Shown here one piece after another: positions 15,437 to 45,921 of a DNA stretch of 64,000 nt. The stretch's first letter is position 1, and every line of letters starts with the position of its first letter. This DNA comes from Patiria pectinifera (taxonomy: Eukaryota > Echinodermata > Asteroidea > Valvatida > Asterinidae): NCBI GenBank assembly GCA_029964075.1, contig CM057130.1:4898001-4962000 (forward strand), given 5' to 3'. Below the pieces are notes generated by a model, which was given only the letters and a program-made list of their open reading frames with translations, was not told the DNA's origin and made no database searches. The position numbers and the translations under genes are program-made.

Positions 15437-18400
15437 CTAGTACCACCCTGTGAACAAAGTTCCGATTTCCAGTGCCTTGTCAAGATAAATGGCCCAGTTG
15501 CCCTCCCCATAGCAACGGACTATTCCACTTTTCAGTTTGAGGGTCAGGATGTCTTCTTTCTTTGCCACGGCTTCTAGTTCTCTCTGGATGATCGCGTTCA
15601 GATCGGAACCAGTCTGAACGGCCTCTACGTCCTTCCCAGTGCCTAGAGTCAGATGAGCCCGACTCCCCCGCCCGCACGTGGGTGAGAATTCCGTCGGGCG
15701 CCAACCCTTTGGACAGGGAACCTCGTCTCTTATAGGGTCAAAGGTTGATATCTCCTGACCTGGCATCTGTGATTGGTCCAGGTGTTGGTGATGTTTCTGT
15801 TGCATTGTTTTGTCTACATTGCTACCTGCTCCAACTGGGGTGAAATCGCTCAATGCGCTACTGTTCGTCTCCCACAGAAGTAACTCCTGATCATTGAGTC
15901 TGATTCGAGCTCCTAAGGTTCGTGGCGTGATTAGGAATCCTATAACCGTCAGGTTGAAGGCACGTCCAGTGGCCTGTCTGACCGCAGGGGAAGTCGCGTA
16001 CTGCTGGGAACCGGCTCTCTCGCTGTAGTTGCTGAAGAATGACGTACAGTGGAGCAGCGTAGTACCAGTGATGAAACCCTCCAAGGAAAAGTAACGATCA
16101 AAGTCCAGGCCGCCTGTGGAAAGTTTAACAAAAGTGGAAAGTTGTCTTTCACTGTGAAAGATAATTGAAAGTGCCCTCCATCTACATTATTCCTCTTCAA
16201 TATAGATCACTTGGTTTTGCTTGTTTTGCTTGAAGTAAGCCAATAAAAAATGAGAAAATTCCAGAAATAGAATGAAAGTACGTGAACTATCCTGAAACAC
16301 GCTTGTCTGAAAAGCTCCGACAACGATTAAAAAAAAGTTGTGAATATTTCACCACCTGATGAATTTTGTAACACCTAACAAACTGGTAATTGTTTTTCTC
16401 AATTTGATTAAAAGTAGAACATCTTCCAGTCACCTGACAAACAGGTTGACTGGTTACAAAGAATCAATAAGAATATCAAGTGCAGTAAGTGCTACTGTTT
16501 TAAGAAGTTTGCAGGAACTTCGCATTCAATGTAAATTGTTCCCTTTGTGCCAGCAACCAAGTGTGGAACTTTACAGTCTCTCCATAGTCAACTGTAACAA
16601 GGAATTTACCCATCAGCACCTGAACATTGTACTACATTGTAATACATGTCCTTTCTCTATGGTATTACACTGTACTACATTATATTACATTGTATTACAT
16701 TGTACTACATTGTATTACATTGTATTACATTGTGCTACATTGTAATACATTGTATTACATTGTACTACATTGTATTACACTGTATTACACTGTACTACAT
16801 TGTATTACACTGTACTACATTGTATTACTCTGTACTACATTGTATTACATTGTGCTACATTGTATTACATTGTACATGTACTACATTGTATTACATTGTA
16901 CTGTATTTATTCACTGATGAATCCATAAAATCAAAGGGAGCAACAGTCAAGGTGATTCCTGATGGTACAGGAACTCATGAGTTAAATCCACCTTTCCATG
17001 CACAGATGTGCATCAAACAGGATGCATATTTAATTTATTGGATAGCAATTTCTTTCTTTCTTTTTCCAAATTCCCGTTTCAACTTGTAAATGCACTACAG
17101 GGTGGTGCAAAAAGAAGGAAACCCACTTTTGACAGCAATTTTCACCTACTTGTTGAGCATATTTCAAAAATTCAATTTAATGGTATTAAAATATTGATCT
17201 TTAAACATAAGTGACGAAAAAATGATTGCAAATGCATATTTTGTCTCTGAGATATGGTAGTTTAAAAATTTCATGTGCCAAACCTGTTTGTCCACGGACG
17301 GCTTTATTCCATCCGCTTGACTGAGCTCCGGGGCTTGGTTTGAAGACAAAAAACACTACACTAGACTTACATGCGGACAACAGTGATTTTGCTGACTTGT
17401 ATTCAAATTAATATAATAAGACTATTCTTGCGATATTTTTAAAGATTTTTTTCACCACGTATGGTTGAAGAGCTATACTTCACTACATTATAAAAAAATA
17501 CTGCTCAAATATATAAGTAGGTTGCAATTCCTGTCAAATGTGGGCTTCCTTCTTTTTGCACCACCCTATATTGCCATGCAGGACACACATCAAAGAGATC
17601 AGCTCCCAACCAAAAATCATATTTGAAATGCCCGTCTAGTTTGACGATAGAAAAACCTACCAGATGCATTTCGCGGTGAGCCAGGAATGGCGTACTTTGT
17701 AAATATCTCCACAAACTTGGGCTGCTGTAGACACTCCTTGAAAATGGTCTTCCCGAATCCTAGGGTGTCCACGGAGAGGTTGAACCCAAGAAACCATCCG
17801 TAGAAGAAAGGGTACAAGATCGTTGGAAGCTTTGGCTTTGCGTTGGCCGTTTTCAAAGTCTCTTGCATGAGCTCCGAGTGCGAGCCGTGTGCAGCCGCTG
17901 GGTGACCTGAGGTGGCGTTCGGTTGTATGACAAGAGTTGTGTAGTTGTAACGATGCGCCAAAGTGAAGCAGGTTTGTAAATCAGACGGGATATTCTCTGT
18001 GCCATTCACGACGATGACTTGCACCCCTTTTTTACAGCTGTCTTCAATCTGTCATGCAAAAGTAACATTTTGGAAAAAAAATTGGCACATACTAAACATA
18101 ATGTAACTCAAAAAGTTTCAGACTCTTATAAGGCAAATATGAAAACCCCTAATGAAACTTATTGATCGTACTTTTTCATAAGCATGCTTTGATAAAATTT
18201 GACAATATGCTACACTCTGAGCTAAACCTGGCCCTTCACACGCTGATTCGCATGCTGATGTCTTCACACACTTAAGCTATGCAACATTGTGAACCGGAAT
18301 ACGCAGCACACTTCGGTACTCTAAAGCCAAGAATTTGCATTTATGAAAGAACAATCTGTCACTCACGTTCCCTATAGTCAGGTATGTTGGTCAGAAGAGG

Positions 18401-19721
18401 ACTAAACTTCAATAATGTTAAGTTTGGTCATCATGTTCTTCTCAAAATTTCTTTTTCAATAACAGCATACGAGACGGGATTATAGTTTTTACCATACTCG
18501 TAGCCGAGCGGTTAGAGCGTGGAGCTACGGAGTGGAAGGTTGGCGGTTCGAATCCCATTCGGACCAAAAACCGGAAAAACTCTCTCTGACGACCCAACAG
18601 TAAAATGGGTACCTGATTCGTTCAGGGAAGGTAAGACGGCGAGAGGAAAGGACTGGGCACTGCCACTGATATGCCGCGCCCAAGACACAGTGGACCTCTA
18701 ACATCCCACTGCCGCTACAGCCAGTAATGGCTGTGGGACCTTTACCTTTACCTTAGGTACGTTTTTTACCAAAAATTTCATAACACCTCTTTTCGACAAA
18801 TGTGCGAAAGCATCTATTGACATGTCTTCTCCCTGTTTTGTTTTTTAAACTTCAAAGTTTACCTGGTCCTGGCATCCTTGGTACCGGTATCTGATTCCCC
18901 CGGAGGGTTTTACTTCAGAACCTCTGGAAGTCTTCAAGCAGCAAGACGCCGAGTCCCTGTAGGTGCTGGTGATGGCTTGGGCTAATGCTGACATCTCTTT
19001 GTCTGATGCAACATGTAGAAAAATCATCACCTGACGAAAAGGAAATATCGACGTGCAAATACATTAATGGCCTGAAAAGAGAAATTGGAATTTTATATTG
19101 GGCTTTGCCCATTGCCGACTTGCCTTTCATTGTTTTGAATTTCTTTTATTGTTTTCTTCAAAATGACAGCATGCCAGAAGGAATGATTTAACAGGGACTT
19201 TAGTGCCATAAATAATTTGATCGGTTACTTATTGGATTGCTGCAAATGATCTACTCTACCTTTCAAATTACAGCAGTAAAGAGCAAATCCCAATAAACAT
19301 TTTGCATAGTAATAGTAGCCATCTTAAGAGGGCGTTTTCTGTTATTTTATTTCAGTGACAATGAATGCACAAAAGGTTCACTCATGCATATCCCAACAAA
19401 ACAAAGGCACTGCCCTCTATCTCAGATGGCTGGCAGGCATAAGGTCTATACTGAACTTACATCTCTCCAACACAAAATTCAACCAAACACAATGGGAAAT
19501 ATTACCTTTATTTGAGTGGAAATGTACTTGACGGTTTGAGGATCTTTCAGGAATGGGTAATTTGCCGAGCCTGGATCTAGTGTCGCTGCCTTTGTTGCCA
19601 TCTCCTGAGATTCGGTCTGCTCCTTAGTGTCCGACATCATGAAGATTAACGTTTGCAGGAGAACCATGAGAAATATGGTGGCCAGGACTACTAATCTGGA
19701 GGGGAGACTAGGGAGCATCAT
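15437..19721 (-). CDS. CNP: 2',3'-cyclic-nucleotide 3'-phosphodiesterase (CNP) homologue, signal-anchored, with a degenerate kinase-like domain
   Basis: Exons in gene order: 19721-19506, 19030-18863, 18048-17661, 16113-15437. They total 1449 nt and give 482 aa; mammalian CNP is about 420. Residues 10-29 are one hydrophobic helix preceded by an arginine and followed by acidic residues, a type II signal anchor. The segment PFLKDPQTV (about 55-63) and the next 30 residues align without gaps to the start of the CNP P-loop kinase domain, as I recall the human protein. Where mammals have GLPGSGKS this protein reads VASDKEMS (79-86), so the Walker A glycines and lysine are gone. The C-terminal 2H phosphodiesterase is intact to the eye: H279-C-T281 and H411-L-T413, then DVEAVQTG (419-426) and a terminal FTGWY. 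About 50 extra residues lie before the second HxT. There is no CaaX box. NxS/T sequons occur at N143, 163, 172, 218, 255, 286, 311 and 341. The start is the first ATG after an acceptor at 19731. Family reaction: 2',3'-cyclic nucleotides to 2'-nucleotides. Confidence 0.9.
16624..16905. repeat. 10-bp tandem repeat (attgtattac / attgtactac)n
   Basis: About 27 units of a 10-base motif that alternates attgtattac and attgtactac, with scattered attgtgctac and actgtattac variants. It lies in the last intron of the CNP gene. Frames through it translate as YYIVLHC-type repeats and are not genes. Confidence 0.95.
17098..17568. mobile_element. Tc1/mariner-like MITE with long terminal inverted repeats
   Basis: The left terminus cagggtggtgcaaaaagaag and its inverted counterpart ending ccaccct(a) define a 471-bp element. 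The inverted match continues for roughly 55 bases with a few differences. TA flanks both sides (17096-17097 and 17569-17570). No transposase is present. It lies in the last intron of CNP, 92 bases from the exon 3 donor. Confidence 0.8.
18495..18757 (+). mobile_element. tRNA-derived SINE with acctttacctta tail
   Basis: The head contains box A (gtagccgagcggttagagc) and box B (ggttcgaatccc), followed by a unique body. It ends in a (ctttac) repeat tail. It is inserted antisense in intron 2 of CNP. The box A resembles serine/leucine tRNA D-arms, but no complete cloverleaf is kept. Confidence 0.8.
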
Positions 19722-20477: not shown

Positions 20478-20526
20478 TACTCCTAGAACTATGAGGCTCA
20501 CGTGGAGCCTCATAGTTCTAGGAGTA
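20478..20526. repeat. Perfect 22-bp hairpin with a 5-base loop
   Basis: The arms begin tactcctagaactatgaggc and are exactly complementary over 22 bases around the loop acgtg. The sequence aaatacatac precedes the left arm and recurs just after the right arm. Confidence 0.9.
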
Positions 20527-34700: not shown

Positions 34701-37700
34701 TGACCCTACAAAATCCTTGGAAAAAACCTCCTGATTGATTCAGAAGGATCCAGGGAGGGTTTAAAGGTCTTTCATATGAAGGCAATCATCCTACAGGACG
34801 TGTCACAGAAGGTTGTTGATAGTTCCTGTTTTTGCCAAGCCCCTGTGGTTAACCGGACATTTAAGAAAAACAGTTAACATTTCAGACTTCACACAGGATT
34901 ATGGACCTGGTTTTATAGACATACGGTGTACAAATGTTTTGTTTTGCATGTGACATTGGTGACATCATCTCTTGTAAGAGTTCCCTCTAGTGGCAAGTTG
35001 GAGAGTGACTCTCAATTTTTCATCATGTGGAAAAAAATATCTCATTGGATTTGATATACGAATGTACCAGTTGGCAAAATTTCATTGTCCCTTTCCCCTC
35101 CTCCCTGACCCCTCCTCTCTGACCCCTCCCCTTTGACCCCTCCCCTCTGACCCCTCCCCTATGGCTCCTCCCCTCTGGCCCCTCCCTTTATGACCCTTCC
35201 CCTGCAATCATGATATAATGAGTTGGTAAAATGGTAATGACGACATGTTTCATTTTGTTTCTCCCCTCTCAGTGTCGCGCTTGCAATCTACTACCACATC
35301 AAGAACAGGGAATCAGACAGACAGATGGATATATTTGATGAGAAGATGCATCAGCTTACGGTACAAAAAAACTGTTCCGAATTTACTGTGTGTCAAGTTT
35401 GCTTGTAGATAAATTCCTTATCCCAATCATGCTCCTGGAACAGGAAATATGTAGTGCGTCTGTGTCCCACATACATGTACATGTACCACTTGGCATTCGG
35501 CCTCGTGGCACATGGGACACAGATGCATTGCATTATTCCATAATCCACTCGCGCTTGTGGGATAACTAGTATTACGTAACCCCAAACCTCGCCTACATTT
35601 CTTGGAAAAAGTTGGAAAAAATCACTCGGGTGGGACTCGAACCCACGACCTCCTGCTTTTTAGTGCAGATGTCTTACCACTCGACCACCGAGCTAACGGG
35701 ATCGGTTGGCTGGTTCGAATCTGATGTACATAGCAGCGGGTACCGCATAAACTATTATAAGATGGAATTTTTGCGTCGGGGTGATAAATCAAATTATAGG
35801 TTTTGCCCTTCACCGACGTTTAAACACTGTATACTCAGTGTGTTGCCTCCCGAGTGAAAGTTGGAAAAAAAACATCGGAGTGTCAATAATTGGCAAATTG
35901 CAAAATTGAGTGACTCACATACGGTATTGATTGTAGTAGCATTTCAGGCTACGGTTGCATGACAGGACGTGTAATTTATTTAGCCCATGTTATGAAAGGC
36001 CTTACCAGGTGACCACAATGTGTTATATCTGTGATTCTCTCTAATCTATAGAAAGATCCCGTGCCAGACGACTACTTCAAAACCAACCCAGAACACAAGC
36101 ACATCTACAGATTTATCCGCATGCTGTTCAACGCGGCACAGCTGACTGCAGAGTGTGCTATTGTCACATTAGTAAGAGCTTTTTATTTAAACATTTGCAA
36201 ATTTTAATGTTGACTTTTGCCCTTTTGCAATGCAATTTTATGCATACTGTATTGTGGGTAAAAAAATTTACCGAACTTGCTCGGCAGAAATCAAACTCAC
36301 AACCCCCTGCTTACAAGCTACTACAACTAATGGTTCCTGACATACTTAAAAGGTGTAGGACATTGTCCCTAGACTCCATTGCAGACACAGATAGGGGTGG
36401 GCATTTACGGGTAGTACGGGAACCGGATACCCGATTGAAAAAAACCCATGGGTATCCGTTAATGAAACCCAACCCCAAAATTCAAATTTGGGAAGTTCCT
36501 GTTCAGATTGTTCATAAAGGTCAGCACAACAATACTACCGAGTCGGTGTGTCGATGCAGCAAGATACGAGTGAGTACATTAAGCAGACTGCAACGTTCGC
36601 AAGCATCATAAACGAGAAACATTGTTGTTTTCCCACGTGGCCTGGTTTATATTTTGAAAATTCCTCACAAATGACAATCAAAACCTTTCTTTTTTCATCT
36701 TCTGAGCAGTTACTAAGTAATTTGTAAAGTTGGTTTCGGGTACCCGATCCCATAATCTGGAACCGGTTTCTAGCATCATCGGTCGGATACTCGGGTACCC
36801 TGTTCCAATGCACAACCCTAGACGCAGACAATCTCAACTATTGAAGGCAATATTATTGTACTTCCAAAGAAAAAAAGTTTTTATCAAATAAAAACCACTA
36901 CAATTTGTTTCCTTTATACATCATGGTTGATTGTATTTACTCTTGACATGCAGGTCTATCTAGAGAGATTATTAACTTACGCTGAGATTGACATCACCCC
37001 AGCCAACTGGAAGCGAATGGTCCTAGGTGCCATACTCCTAGCGTCCAAGGTGTGGGACGACCAGGCCGTCTGGAATGTAGATTACTGCCAGATCATGAAA
37101 GACCTCACTGTTGATGATATGTGAGTGGCTATCAGCAATGTATTCCTACCAGTGTTGCAATTCAGTTCTTTTTTGAGTTCTCCGAGTTACTGAAAAAAAA
37201 AAGATTTAATCTGAGACGGTAGACCATATGCTCTGAGAACCTGTTCCTCTCTGGTTAGGATTCTGTGAATTCGGACAAAAGGCTTTTGCTGAAAATTCAA
37301 GGAATTTGCGAAAACTGACCGAAAACCTGATCTGAAACGGGATTTGAATATCGGCAACCTCTGTTAATACCGTAACACTGCTCCTCTGAGCTATTGACGG
37401 TGTTGTAGTAGAGTCCATCACAAGTCCGTCACAAGCCCATCATAAACCCATCACATATCCATCACAAGCTCATCACAAGCCCATCACAAGTCCATCACAA
37501 ATCCATCACAAGCCCATCACAAGCCTACCACAAGTCCATTACAAGCCCACCACAAGCCCATCACAAGCCCATCACAAGCCCATCACAAGCCCATTACAAG
37601 CCTATCACAAGCCCATCATAAGTCCATCACTTATCCATCACAAGCTCATCACAAGCCCATCATAAGTCCATCACAAGCCCATCACAAGCCCATCACAAGC

Positions 37701-40166
37701 CCATCACTAGCCCACCACAAGCCCATCACAAGTCCTCACCAGTCCATCACAAGTCCATCACAAGTCCCTCACAAGTCCATCACAACCCCATCACAAGCCC
37801 ACCACAAGTCCATCACAAGTCCATCACAAGCCCATCACAAGCCCATCACAACCCCATTACAAGTCCTCCAGTCTCAAGTCAAGTAACAAGCTATTCAAAG
37901 TAGCTGCATTCCTTTGTTATTGTTCATCCCCTGTTACTTACGACAGGACTTGTGATAAGACTTTACTTTTGACCAGACTTGTGATGGACTCATAGAGCTA
38001 TATTAAATTACTAGAACGCTAACTCGATGTGCCTGATGGGTGCATCCATGTTTGTGCACAAACCTATGGAGAACTAGAAATTTTCTACGGCTTTTGTACG
38101 GCTATTTGCATATCTACGTTTGTATTCCATACCGGTGCGTCATCGAAGCTGATACGCCAAAAACCGAAAGGCACGATCAGCAAATGAGCGTTTCTTTTTG
38201 CTCTACGCAAACAGCGCAACGTGTGCGCGTCCCTCCGCTGCAGATGCTTTTCGCCGTGAAGTTTTTTTAACCGTCATGACACGCTTAAGTTGTTTGCGTA
38301 TCTTCTACTTGCGTGTTGCATTTAAGGTACACTTTTAAAATTCAATCCATCTATTTTGATTGTGTTCCACAAATACGCACATGAATTCAAAATGTCTGCG
38401 CCCAGGACGGCTTCAAAGCGTCTCCGCGCGCAAGAATGAGGAGTTAGCGCTCTAGTAATTCAATATAGCTCTATGGATGGACTGGACTACAGCACTGCCT
38501 ATTAATGCCTGCATCTGCATCCTCGCAATGTCTCAGTGTCTGCTCAAGATCCTCTTTTGAATTTCTCTTTGATAGGAATGAGCTTGAGAGACAGTTCTTG
38601 GAGATGTTGCAGTTCAACATCAACGTTCCCTCCAGCGTCTACGCTAAGTACTATTTTGACCTCCGTGCCCTGGCTGATGCCTATGAAATCTCCTTCCCTT
38701 CCTCACCGCTCAGCAGAGAAAGAGCCCAAACATTGGAGGTACTACAAACATTCATTTGTCCAATATTTTCGTATTCTTTTTTTGGTGGGGGGGGGGGGGG
38801 CAAATATCATTTGGAGGAAAATGGGACAGTGATCAAACTGATTGTAATAACAGCAACTGTGAGGAAACCATCGCTGATTTTTGGGAACATTTGCTGTTTT
38901 GTTTTACTCTTTTAAAGGGTCCATGAAGCAAATTTTTCTTTAGGAGCATATTTTGTGCAACTTTCTACTACTCGTACATGTATGAAGACTACATGTATTT
39001 GACTTGTCTTTGCTTTACTGCTATGTACTGACACAACAACGAATCACCAAGAAAAGAACGACGGCGAAATATCCAAAATTCTGGCACATTTTGTTGCTAA
39101 AATAGCTGTAACATTGAGGTTTCTGCCTCAAAAACATGTATGTATAATCAACCTTTTCATAATTTTGAAATGTCAATTACCTGCTTTGAACATTTTGATT
39201 CAAGGTTTTCCTTTTCTCTTAAAATCGATAAGTTTAGAAAACAATACATGTTGTTTATACTTGTGGATTCCCCCCCCCATTATGTCCCCATTATGAAAAC
39301 TACAACAGAATATGCACTCATCTTTCCCATAGAACTACAACTAATGCATATTTCCCTAGATGGGGCAATTCGTTCACTGAGAGTTCATACAATACAATGT
39401 TAGGAGAAAACAGGAAAAAAAACCCACAATACCCTGCGATTTACCTGCCGTAATCGGCCTCTTTCTCCCAAGCAGCATTTAAAGTAAAAACTTGATGTTT
39501 TACACTGGTTTTTCCAGTGACATATATCCTGCTTTGCAGCAGTTATGTTAAGATTATTGAGTTATGATGAAGGCTTACAAAATCTTGGCTTAATTTCAAG
39601 GTGTGGGATGATGGGTTCAGCTTCAAGATTTTAGTCTCCTTCGGTCACAGTTTCAGACCAGTTGTATCACTCTAGGGTGGCATGGGTGGCTAGTGCATTA
39701 AGCGCTTGCCTCTCACCAATGTGGCCCGGGTCCCATTCCCGGCTCGGACCATATGTGAGTAGAGTTGTTCATTGATTCTCACCTGTGCCAGAAGGTTCTT
39801 CTCTGGGCTCTGCGGTTTTCCCCCCTCCGCAAAAAAAAAATCAACATTTTCGGTCTCTGGCTGTGCTCCGTTGTCAGGCATGGGTCGTATGACGGCTGCC
39901 TAAGGCGCCTTACATGCCTTCGGCTCGACCACGTTGTAATCGCGCCCTGTGCAAAATTAATCTGGTCTCTGAAAATGACACAACATTTAACTAGGAATGT
40001 GCATTATCTAACATTTCCTGTTTGTTATTTTCATCCCTCACTCCAGGCCATCACAAGGCTTTGCGAGGAGAAGACGCGAGACCAAACCTACCAGGAGCTG
40101 AAGCGCTCCTCCAGCGTGGACGGCATTCACTTAGGCCCCAAATTCACGGCGGCTATCATCTCATGA
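22714..40166 (+). CDS. CCNY: Cyclin Y, complete, 8 coding exons
   Basis: Coding exons: 22714-22912, 29081-29149, 30152-30314, 35273-35360, 36052-36171, 36954-37120, 38576-38738, 40047-40166. They total 1089 nt and give 362 aa; human cyclin Y is 341. The protein starts MGNC, a glycine-2 N-myristoylation signal with a cysteine next to it, as in known cyclin Y, which tethers it to the plasma membrane. NLQHISDRE (54-62), [20 protein letters not shown] (120-139), the cyclin box (about 174-300, with [14 protein letters not shown] and [18 protein letters not shown]) and the C-terminal AAIIS are all characteristic. Family role: binding and activation of CDK14 and CDK16, for example in Wnt co-receptor phosphorylation. 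The serines around 121-122 and 344-346 match positions that are 14-3-3 related phosphosites in the human protein (from memory). The N-terminal 50 residues are poorly conserved and lysine-rich. Residue 144 is Y where human has C. Introns hold many mobile elements. Intron 1 is 6.2 kb. Confidence 0.97.
23091..23359. mobile_element. Foldback element with hammerhead-like hinge (copy 1)
   Basis: Arms of about 110 bp (23127-23239 and 23248-23359) are near-perfect inverted copies. They run from ggtttgcggaaacaccatgtg inward to a hinge at about 23243. Outside the left arm is gaggctttgcatggtgg, also present in the second copy at 56500. Read outward from the hinge, each arm starts cctgaagacggtcag, makes a 7-bp stem and continues ggaacgt. 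This resembles a hammerhead core (CTGANGA, stem II, GAA...). It lies in cyclin Y intron 1. Confidence 0.75.
24168..24575. mobile_element. Inverted-repeat element with ttgccaaattttgatttt arms
   Basis: The left arm (about 24168-24262) and right arm (about 24490-24575) match in inverse orientation in blocks: the ggcctatttactggactgcctcc side outside and the tttgccaaattttgatttt side inside. The identity is moderate, so this looks older than the other foldbacks. A similar left end occurs at 19986-20043. Confidence 0.6.
25143..25484. mobile_element. piggyBac-like miniature element (copy 1)
   Basis: It begins ccctaacccc after TTAA (25139-25142) and ends ctagggt before TTAA (25485-25488). The interior has at least six copies of a cctcaatcctccaaaatcc motif, in the reverse orientation near the right end. 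The family is better bounded at 30427-30817. Confidence 0.65.
26471..27069. mobile_element. hAT-like miniature element, gaatattcaaatattcgg family (copy 1)
   Basis: A 599-bp element with ends tagggctgtgcc and gcatagcccta. It is flanked by gaatgagc (26463-26470) and gaatgagg (27070-27077), an 8-bp target duplication with one difference. It is rich in aatattcgg/ccgaatatt motifs. A relative lies at 50642-51071. Confidence 0.8.
28033..28088. repeat. Hairpin made of the cctcaatcctccaaaatcc motif
   Basis: An 18-bp arm (cctcaatccttcaaaatc) and its inverted partner (gattttggaggattgagg) flank about 18 bases. This is the same subterminal motif as in the piggyBac-like elements at 25143 and 30427, here without TTAA ends. 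Confidence 0.75.
30427..30817. mobile_element. piggyBac-like miniature element (copy 2)
   Basis: A 391-bp element that begins ccctaacc and ends cataggg. It is flanked on both sides by TTAA (30423-30426 and 30818-30821), the piggyBac target site and typical CCCT terminus. Copies of ccaaaatcctcc lie near the left end, with three reversed copies (ggaggattttg..ggattgagg) in the right half. It lies in cyclin Y intron 3. Confidence 0.8.
33271..33340 (-). repeat. tRNA-derived SINE fragment
   Basis: On the minus strand it reads gagctcggtggtccagtgg (box A), a ctgcactagtaagcag anticodon-arm-like hairpin and ctggttccaatcc (box B). It is a clear relative of the element at 35623-35694. It is degenerate and is not a functional tRNA. 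Confidence 0.7.
35092..35202. repeat. Imperfect (cccctcccctctga)n minisatellite
   Basis: About eight units of a 13-14-base pyrimidine-rich motif (tgacccctcccctc) with substitutions. It lies about 70 bases before exon 4 of cyclin Y. Confidence 0.9.
35623..35694 (-). repeat. tRNA-like element, 72 nt, probably SINE head or tRNA pseudogene
   Basis: The minus strand folds close to a tRNA. The acceptor arm agctcgg pairs with ccgagtg (one mismatch, one wobble). Box A is tggtcgagtgg, the anticodon stem is tctgc/gcagg, and the T arm gtggg-ttcgagt-cccac is perfect. The anticodon loop has 8 bases (actaaaaa), so it is unlikely to be a working tRNA. A T run follows (minus strand), as in a Pol III terminator. 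A related fragment at 33271 supports a dispersed SINE. A further 130 bases on its 5' side (to about 35830) belong to the same repeat. Confidence 0.7.
36392..36820. mobile_element. hAT-like miniature element with gggtacccg motifs
   Basis: A 429-bp element with ends taggggtgggcat and atgcacaaccc(ta). It is flanked by gacacaga (36384-36391) and gacgcaga (36821-36828), an 8-bp duplication with one difference. Inside are cggatacccg and cgggtacccgatcc motifs in both orientations. It lies in cyclin Y intron 5. Confidence 0.8.
37405..37870. repeat. 11-bp satellite (ccatcacaagc)n
   Basis: About 40 units of an 11-base motif (catcacaagcc / catcacaagtc) with common variants. The block lies inside a larger inverted-repeat unit: gagtccatcacaagtc stands at its left and gacttgtgatggactc at about 37976-37991. 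The sequence after the array (tccagtctcaagtcaa ... ctttgttattgttcatcccc) recurs without the array at 9258-9395 and partly at 23505-23545. Confidence 0.9.
37991..38475. mobile_element. hAT-like miniature element with 35-bp terminal inverted repeats
   Basis: A 485-bp element starting catagagctatattaaatta and ending with its inverted partner (taattcaatatagctctatg). It is flanked by the exact 8-bp repeat gatggact (37983-37990 and 38476-38483). It landed at the very edge of the 11-bp satellite unit. It has no coding content. A solo end of the same type (aatatagctctatgagct) is seen near 43966. Confidence 0.85.
39672..39965 (+). mobile_element. tRNA-derived SINE
   Basis: Box A (gggtggctagtgcattaagc) and box B (gggtcccattcccg) are followed by catatgtgagtagagttgtt, an aaggttcttctctgggctctgcggttttccc body and a distal end near ctctgaaaatgacac. 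It lies in the last intron of cyclin Y, just before the final exon. Confidence 0.75.
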
Positions 40167-44898: not shown

Positions 44899-45849
44899 TT
44901 AATTCTTTGGTTAAAAAAGATTAATACTGTCTTTTTCTGTTTTGTGCGTTCGGATTCCGTTAAACTAGATTTTTAAAATCAAAGATGAATATCTTTATTA
45001 TTAAAAGTAAATTACTTGTAGTCAAATTGATCAAATTCAGATGACAAATATTCTGAAATTCACCAGAAATTTGTTTTTTGATTTGGTAGATATTTTGGGG
45101 CCAACATTGAAAGCAAAGAAATTGGAAGGTGTAACGATACCTCTTTAATCTATCAATGAGGCCTTATTAACCATCGAACGGGCTAATAATGGTTTTGAGA
45201 ATTCTCTGTTGAAATTGTTCTACTTTAAATATCATTTTAGATAAACTTCGACATTTAAAAAACATCGAAAAAAGAGGGGAAAATTTAGAAATTGCATTGA
45301 ATTTTTTGTAACTGACAAAATTGAAAATGAATACAAAAACACAAGATTACCCCTTGTTGCTTTCTTCTCTCAAAAAATGCCCTGAAATTTCAGTTACGCA
45401 GATAATGGTTCGAAAAAAGTCAAAATCATGTTTTGGGGTAGGTTTTTCTTACTAAAAGTCTTAAGAAAACAAAATTAATATTCACCTTTACAATTTGAGT
45501 GTTGTTAGTTGAAAAGCAATCAGTTAAATTAAAACAAAACACAAAAAGCTCGCTATTTTCTCTTGTTAATACAGTTAGCTTTAATGGCTTTACTCATAAT
45601 CTGCAATTCACAGCATCAACAGTGCATTTTTTTCCCTAAAAAAGTAGACCTCCAATCACAAAATGATTGCTCTGTTCGAACGCGGAACAAGACAAAGATA
45701 CAATTTTACAAGTAGTAGTCAAATGTCTTTAGCTGCCAAAAAATATTGGAGGGACTAAAAACGAAAATATCTACCGTTTTACTGAGTTCATCAGACCGCA
45801 ATAGGAAAATGACTTGGTTCACTAACAATCCATATTGAAGAATGAAAAT

Positions 45850-45921
45850 GAGTGGAACAGGGTTCGAACCTGCAACCTCAGGATTACTGTTCCGGCCCAC
45901 CACCAACTGAGCTATCCAGCC
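45850..45921 (-). repeat. tRNA-like sequence, 72 nt, degenerate
   Basis: The minus strand has an acceptor arm ggctgga / tccactc with a mismatch, box A tagctcagttgg, and a perfect T arm gcagg-ttcgaac-cctgt. The anticodon loop lacks the universal T33, so this is a tRNA-derived SINE head or pseudogene rather than a working tRNA. Confidence 0.65.

Follow-up and report, generated by a model that had tools for sequence, protein, structure and literature searches.

Here we describe a gene for a relative of CNPase (2',3'-cyclic nucleotide 3'-phosphodiesterase) in the sea star Patiria pectinifera, located in a 64,000-nucleotide stretch of GenBank assembly GCA_029964075.1 (contig CM057130.1, positions 4,898,001 to 4,962,000; hereafter the window, whose own numbering is used throughout). 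The gene occupies 15437-19721 on the minus strand, to which all coordinates of its exons and protein features refer, and, rebuilt from the window sequence, consists of four exons encoding 482 amino acids in 1449 nt. All exon borders are GT..AG, the phases are 0, 0 and 1, and the reading frame runs unbroken to the C-terminus, FTGWY. Exon 1 (19506..19721, donor GTAATA) encodes residues 1-72, comprising a short tail, the predicted membrane helix, a stalk and the start of a kinase-like domain. Exons 2 (18863..19030, residues 73-128) and 3 (17661..18048, residues 129-257 plus one base) both have AG/GT borders, and exon 4 (15437..16113) supplies residues 258-482, the stop codon and the bulk of the 2H phosphodiesterase domain. 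A pseudogene is ruled out by the open frame, canonical splice sites and kept catalytic residues, and a misassembled frame by the 96% identity to the public Patiria miniata model.

The first ATG has an A at -3 and is preceded in the genomic sequence, 96 nt upstream, by an in-frame TGA; three more ATGs, each opening a short frame, lie 118-133 nt upstream. An upstream exon may be spliced into this 96-nt stretch, because the Acanthaster model has nine extra residues N-terminal of the helix. The non-coding sequence also carries repeats. Intron 3 holds an element of about 480 bp (17092-17574) with 60-nt inverted termini that are 87% complementary, resembling a small non-autonomous DNA transposon, and a tandem array (16662-16900) of 24.3 copies of the unit GTATTACATT with 82% matches. 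By eye, intron 2 contains a piece like a short interspersed nuclear element (18497-18760) with a transfer RNA (tRNA) head and a TTTACC-rich tail, the tail motif occurring once in the window when up to three mismatches are allowed. Upstream of the gene there is a perfect 22-base inverted repeat with a 5-base loop (20478-20526).

Relatives were collected with three word-limited protein searches. Among the matches listed, the closest proteins are those of Patiria miniata (96% identity), Acanthaster planci (68%) and Asterias rubens (50%), followed at 25-28% identity by one vertebrate-like, five sturgeon or paddlefish and one crayfish CNPase; further matches are a 246-residue fragment (P0015), which aligns with half of the Asterias protein at 79% identity, and proteins of a sea cucumber, two more crustaceans, a lizard and a frog. 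Sea urchins, brittle stars and crinoids are not represented among these matches, which include one named CNPase per sea-star species, and one of the searches gave the three sea-star proteins alone; the window gene may be a paralogue, with a second, cytosolic CNPase elsewhere in the genome. The public models compared are isoform X2 (P0001 and P0002) and isoform X1 (P0003), and isoforms beyond these may exist. The gene is known already, public records naming the sea-star proteins CNPase-like, with their topology apparently unremarked.

Catalytic and kinase-like halves

Judged by its catalytic domain, the window protein is a CNPase. It matches PF05881 with 136.5 bits (cut-off 25) from residue 208, in exon 3, and also matches 23 distinct PDB sequences, 22 of them named CNPase and one G-RICH. 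When aligned to solved CNPase domains, both catalytic motifs are found, the first as H279-C-T281 (16043..16051) and the second as H411-L-T413 (15647..15655). Counting from these HxT motifs in the alignment, F284, R409 and V423 are the equivalents of mouse F235, R307 and V321, to which excerpts of PMC4643303 assign substrate-binding roles. With both motifs and the substrate-binding equivalents present, hydrolysis of 2',3'-cyclic nucleotides is the activity to be expected of this sequence.

The kinase-like half has fared differently. Excerpts of PMC5434554 define the Walker A motif as G-x-G-K-T/S, and all seven non-echinoderm CNPases in our alignment (A4) carry GxPGSGK[S/T], SAD and D[DN]T. At these three places the window protein has HVASDKEMS (residues 78-86, 18989..19015, the remnant of a loop reading RGLPGSGKS elsewhere), CCLK and NGT, and no Pfam P-loop domain is found in it at E values up to 1. 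In Asterias the Walker A motif is blurred to GVPPGRGRS, and the SAD and D[DN]T motifs are gone; the aspartate of the last is retained there, and has become a sequon asparagine in Patiria and Acanthaster. Because the Walker A, SAD and DDT motifs are lost, this half is very probably dead as a kinase, a point overlooked in the original prediction, which was made from the letters of the window and their open reading frames. The loss of the adenosine triphosphate (ATP)-binding motifs would fit an ATP-poor compartment.

Membrane helix, sequons and cysteines

Residues 10-28 (19638..19694) form the most hydrophobic 19-residue stretch of the protein, with a Kyte-Doolittle mean of 2.67, and are predicted by hydropathy and insertion score to be a signal-anchor. 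At 19-20 residues the helix is long enough to span a membrane, and its insertion score is -2.86 on a scale that we take to be that of Hessa 2005. R9 precedes it, and D31, E34, E37 and E40 follow, with K33 among them, much as the original prediction had described when it proposed an N-terminal helix with a positive residue before and acidic residues after. The helix is present in all five sea-star sequences (the window, P0001, P0002, P0003 and P0015; summed insertion scores -1.8 to -2.9) and absent from the 12 other CNPases scored, which comprise 11 non-echinoderm proteins (eight vertebrate-type, three crustacean) and that of the sea cucumber, and whose best stretch anywhere scores +6.2 to +10.6. 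Identity to the window helix is 19/19 in P. miniata, 15/19 in Acanthaster and 12/19 in Asterias; the stalk behind it is less conserved (10/25 identical in Acanthaster, 6/25 in Asterias), and the helix thus appears to be constrained. Its N-side flank carries a charge of +2, counting the N-terminal amine, in the window, P. miniata, Asterias and fragment P0015, and its C-side flank -2 or -3, so that an N-in orientation is favoured in these four.

The second feature that sets the sea-star proteins apart is their content of N-glycosylation sequons (NxS/T). The window protein has eight (N143, 163, 172, 218, 255, 286, 311 and 341), all C-terminal of the helix; shuffling its residues 5000 times gives an expectation of 2.39 (p 0.0006; 2.41 and 0.0008 in a repeat), which rules out a chance origin. 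Shuffling also gives an excess in P. miniata (p 0.002), Acanthaster (p 0.009) and fragment P0015 (p 0.009). None of the eight vertebrate-type CNPases has a single sequon, the three crustacean proteins have 1, 3 and 2, at or below chance, and the sea cucumber protein has 3 against 1.25 by chance (p 0.12), placed elsewhere than in sea stars.

Sequon columns are shared with the window in 8/8 cases by P. miniata, 7/8 by Acanthaster and 5/8 by Asterias, and several persist despite changes of the middle residue or swaps of S and T. Four are common to the window and all three named sea-star orthologues: N163-YT (17938..17946), N172-AT (17911..17919), N218-LS (17773..17781) and N255-AS (17662..17670). 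N143-GT (17998..18006), which takes the DDT/DNT place of other CNPases, and N341-SS (15857..15865) are found in Patiria and Acanthaster, as is N286-YS (16022..16030), for which Asterias has a sequon three residues later; N311-LT (15947..15955) is found in Patiria and Asterias. In Acanthaster the sequon asparagines are kept in 8/8 cases, compared with 3/7 for other asparagines (p 0.026), and the S or T at sequon position +2 is kept in 7/8 cases compared with 45/69 elsewhere (6/8 and 36/69, respectively, in Asterias).

Ten cysteines, at positions 102, 103, 125, 133, 155, 234, 280, 391, 404 and 458, all follow the helix; the counts of eight sequons and about ten cysteines on its C-terminal side, made in the original prediction, therefore hold in the rebuilt protein. 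The three named sea-star orthologues have retained nine of the ten, of which eight are non-catalytic, C280 lying in the HCT motif. C103, C234 and C404 are the only conserved non-catalytic cysteines confined to sea stars (3/8 in the alignment). The pair Cys102-Cys103 (18938..18943), at the place of the SAD motif, occurs in the four sea-star proteins of the alignment, and Cys102 alone occurs in crustaceans too. The window protein also has no C-terminal CaaX box, as had been pointed out; seven of the eight vertebrate-type CNPases have one.

Topology, rival explanations and origin

Taken together, these features make it quite likely, in our view, that the sea-star CNPase orthologue has been re-targeted to the secretory pathway as a type II glycoprotein that opens 2',3'-cyclic phosphates outside the cytosol. 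The uncleaved N-terminal helix would act as a signal-anchor in the N-in/C-out orientation, placing the folded body in the lumen of the endoplasmic reticulum (ER) and Golgi or at the cell exterior, where the sequon asparagines would be glycosylated and some of the cysteines may pair as disulfides. The 2H site would hydrolyse 2',3'-cyclic nucleotides, or the 2',3'-cyclic phosphate ends of RNA, to 2'-phosphates, with the kinase-like half serving only as a scaffold. T2-type secretory or lysosomal ribonucleases generate 2',3'-cyclic phosphates, and the substrate would probably come from RNA cut by such enzymes or from exported 2',3'-cyclic nucleoside monophosphates. Golgi enzymes are built from a short tail, a helix of about 20 residues, a stalk and a luminal catalytic domain and, because the sea-star protein has the same build, Golgi residence seems as likely as residence at the cell surface. 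We would give an even chance to a narrower proposal, in which sea stars have a 2',3'-cyclic phosphodiesterase dedicated to the lumen or the cell exterior. Descended from CNPase, glycosylated and of type II topology, this enzyme would have dropped the chemistry of its kinase half and would process the products of extracellular or lysosomal RNA cleavage. If true, the proposal would provide a genetically defined enzyme for the step from extracellular 2',3'-cyclic adenosine monophosphate (2',3'-cAMP) to 2'-AMP. A catalytic domain moved across the membrane, with its active site kept and the kinase-like chemistry discarded, would make the catalytic role of CNPase separable from its cytosolic scaffolding and tRNA-healing roles, and would allow a 2',3'-cyclic nucleotide pathway in the lumen or outside the cell to be tested by genetics in Patiria, a laboratory echinoderm.

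Several observations weigh against re-targeting. The helix flanks of Acanthaster are +2/+2, a neutral charge bias, and in the asparagine-rich Asterias protein the sequon excess is not significant (p 0.06), its sequon asparagines (6/8 kept) being no better preserved than the others (5/7). Five of the eight conserved non-catalytic cysteines recur outside sea stars, C102, C125 and C391 in all three crustaceans, C133 in all four vertebrate-type sequences of the alignment and C458 in the sea cucumber and a frog; these relatives are helix-less and presumably cytosolic, so that cysteine conservation is weak evidence for disulfides or a lumen. The CaaX box is likewise missing from all three crustaceans, the sea cucumber and one of the eight vertebrate-type proteins. 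The equivalent of mouse Y168 is F210 in the window protein, although a sturgeon and the sea cucumber likewise have phenylalanine there. The sea cucumber protein has lost the same kinase motifs without having a helix, and their loss alone is thus no sign of a lumen. The topology is predicted from hydropathy scores, and the structure model, which has a helix at 8-29, is too poor (mean predicted local distance difference test 48.2, predicted template modelling score 0.36) to judge sequon exposure, disulfide geometry or fold. We rejected CaaX absence, cysteine number and kinase-motif loss, each as sole proof of a lumen, since helix-less relatives share them wholly or partly. Thus, of the grounds on which the original prediction had proposed re-routing as a type II protein, the helix and the sequons continue to carry it, and the missing CaaX box and the cysteines have become weak supports.

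The range of this topology can be viewed through the tree of the family (13 rows), in which the four full-length sea-star sequences cluster together (support 100/99). The Apostichopus japonicus CNPase-like isoform X2 (P0016) joins them (96/94), although its placement is unsure given the midpoint root and its long branch; like them it keeps the catalytic motifs, has lost the kinase motifs and has no CaaX box, but it differs in having no hydrophobic helix, a start of MGIFSSS, four cysteines and three sequons placed elsewhere. That start resembles an N-myristoylation signal and would, if real, be a third anchoring mode in the CNPase family. All three named sea-star orthologues have the helix and share most of the 8 sequon columns (8, 7 and 5), and so do not show the loss of both that the original prediction had named as telling against it. 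P0016, having no helix, does fit that wording but, as it lies outside the sea stars, it limits the range of the topology and does not overturn it. Because of this one helix-less sea cucumber relative, the re-routing looks asteroid-specific on a thin sampling. On the same thin sampling, the helix would have arisen on the sea-star line before the split of Asterias, a member of Forcipulatida, from Patiria, a member of Valvatida; it may instead have been gained earlier and then lost in sea cucumbers. Separately, the crayfish and lobster CNPases P0009, P0011 and P0012 start with MEWLW or MAWLW followed by clustered cysteines, possibly a palmitoylated start.

Three other explanations of the helix have to be weighed against re-targeting. 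One, which we consider unlikely, is that the gene yields two isoforms: translation from the first ATG would give a membrane form, and the main enzyme would be cytosolic, starting at codons 28/29 or using another first exon. Both of these downstream ATGs lie just behind the helix, codon 29 with an A at -3, Acanthaster also has a pair of methionines there, and the isoform numbers X1 and X2 in public records indicate that other transcripts may exist. However, the first ATG has an A at -3 where codon 28 has a T, the Asterias protein has a methionine only within the helix and none right after it, and the conservation of sequons along the body implies its exposure to the lumen.

A mitochondrial role for the helix, as signal-anchor or targeting segment of a protein sitting on or in mitochondria, also seems improbable to us. 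The residues after the helix do align near the second methionine of CNPase P0004, presumably the start of isoform 1. The segment would then be the counterpart of the extension of mammalian isoform 2, in which, according to excerpts of PMC7246452 and PMC4643303, 20 added N-terminal residues carry a signal for mitochondrial import. However, P0004 and P0013 have basic, non-hydrophobic N-termini, whereas the window helix combines strong hydrophobicity with a single preceding basic residue, and an excess of sequons would have no reason in mitochondria. Finally, a true anchor in the N-out orientation, giving a membrane-bound cytosolic CNPase with unused sequons and a different anchor, could draw on the equal net flank charge in Acanthaster, the cysteines shared with helix-less CNPases, the isoprenylated, membrane-anchored tail of vertebrate CNPase (excerpts of PMC4643303) and the hint from the start of P0016 that anchors may change in the family, but we judge it very improbable: in the window, P. 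miniata and Asterias the short N-tail carries a basic residue and the helix is followed by acidic ones, which favours N-in, and the sequon excess also speaks against it.

Elsewhere in the window, a plus-strand frame at 38469-38915 contains a cyclin-Y exon (match to PDB 9r2i chain D, residues 33-94, E 1.4e-23). About 41 copies of the 11-base unit CCATCACAAGC occupy 37415-37863, within a 2-kb block of guanine-cytosine (GC) skew -0.21. On the minus strand there are two tRNA-like sequences, one at 35621-35695 (Rfam 50.5 bits; anticodon not resolved by ARAGORN) and a weaker one at 45849-45921 (31.5 bits).

Comparison with known systems

Enzymes of type II topology that hydrolyse nucleotide phosphodiesters outside the cell are known in the ENPP-type ecto-nucleotide phosphodiesterases, which are metal-dependent and of an unrelated fold; to the sea-star CNPase they are a functional parallel only. 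Within the open-licence literature, which leaves most subscription journals outside, we found no account of CNPase in an echinoderm, nor of any CNPase that is secreted, glycosylated or luminal. In this literature CNPase co-occurs with sea urchin, echinoderm or starfish terms in two papers only, PMC13025143, where in the portions covered it is an oligodendrocyte marker without a tie to echinoderms, and PMC11115438; PMC6214176, in which it co-occurs with amphioxus, mentions it in a coral domain table.

The lancelet PNK/CPDase, a tRNA-healing enzyme described in excerpts of PMC5434554, has a homologous layout of kinase-like and cyclic phosphodiesterase parts. By that description, on which the comparison rests, it differs in having a Walker A motif and kinase activity, whereas the window protein lacks Walker A, SAD and DDT and has a helix. 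The same excerpts give kinase activity as absent from vertebrate CNPase and present in the lancelet and yeast enzymes.

According to the abstract of PMC3290555, CNPase is abundant in myelin and its physiological substrate is not known. The solved catalytic domains of the vertebrate enzyme (PDB 2xmi, 2ilx and 1woj) have in common with the window protein the PF05881 domain, both HxT motifs, the R307, F235 and V321 equivalents, the two-part layout and a similar domain end (FTGWY in the window, FTGYY in 1woj). In their remaining features the two diverge: the eight vertebrate-type CNPases have neither helix nor sequons, have a P-loop domain and, in seven of eight cases, a CaaX box, and the window protein is the opposite on each.

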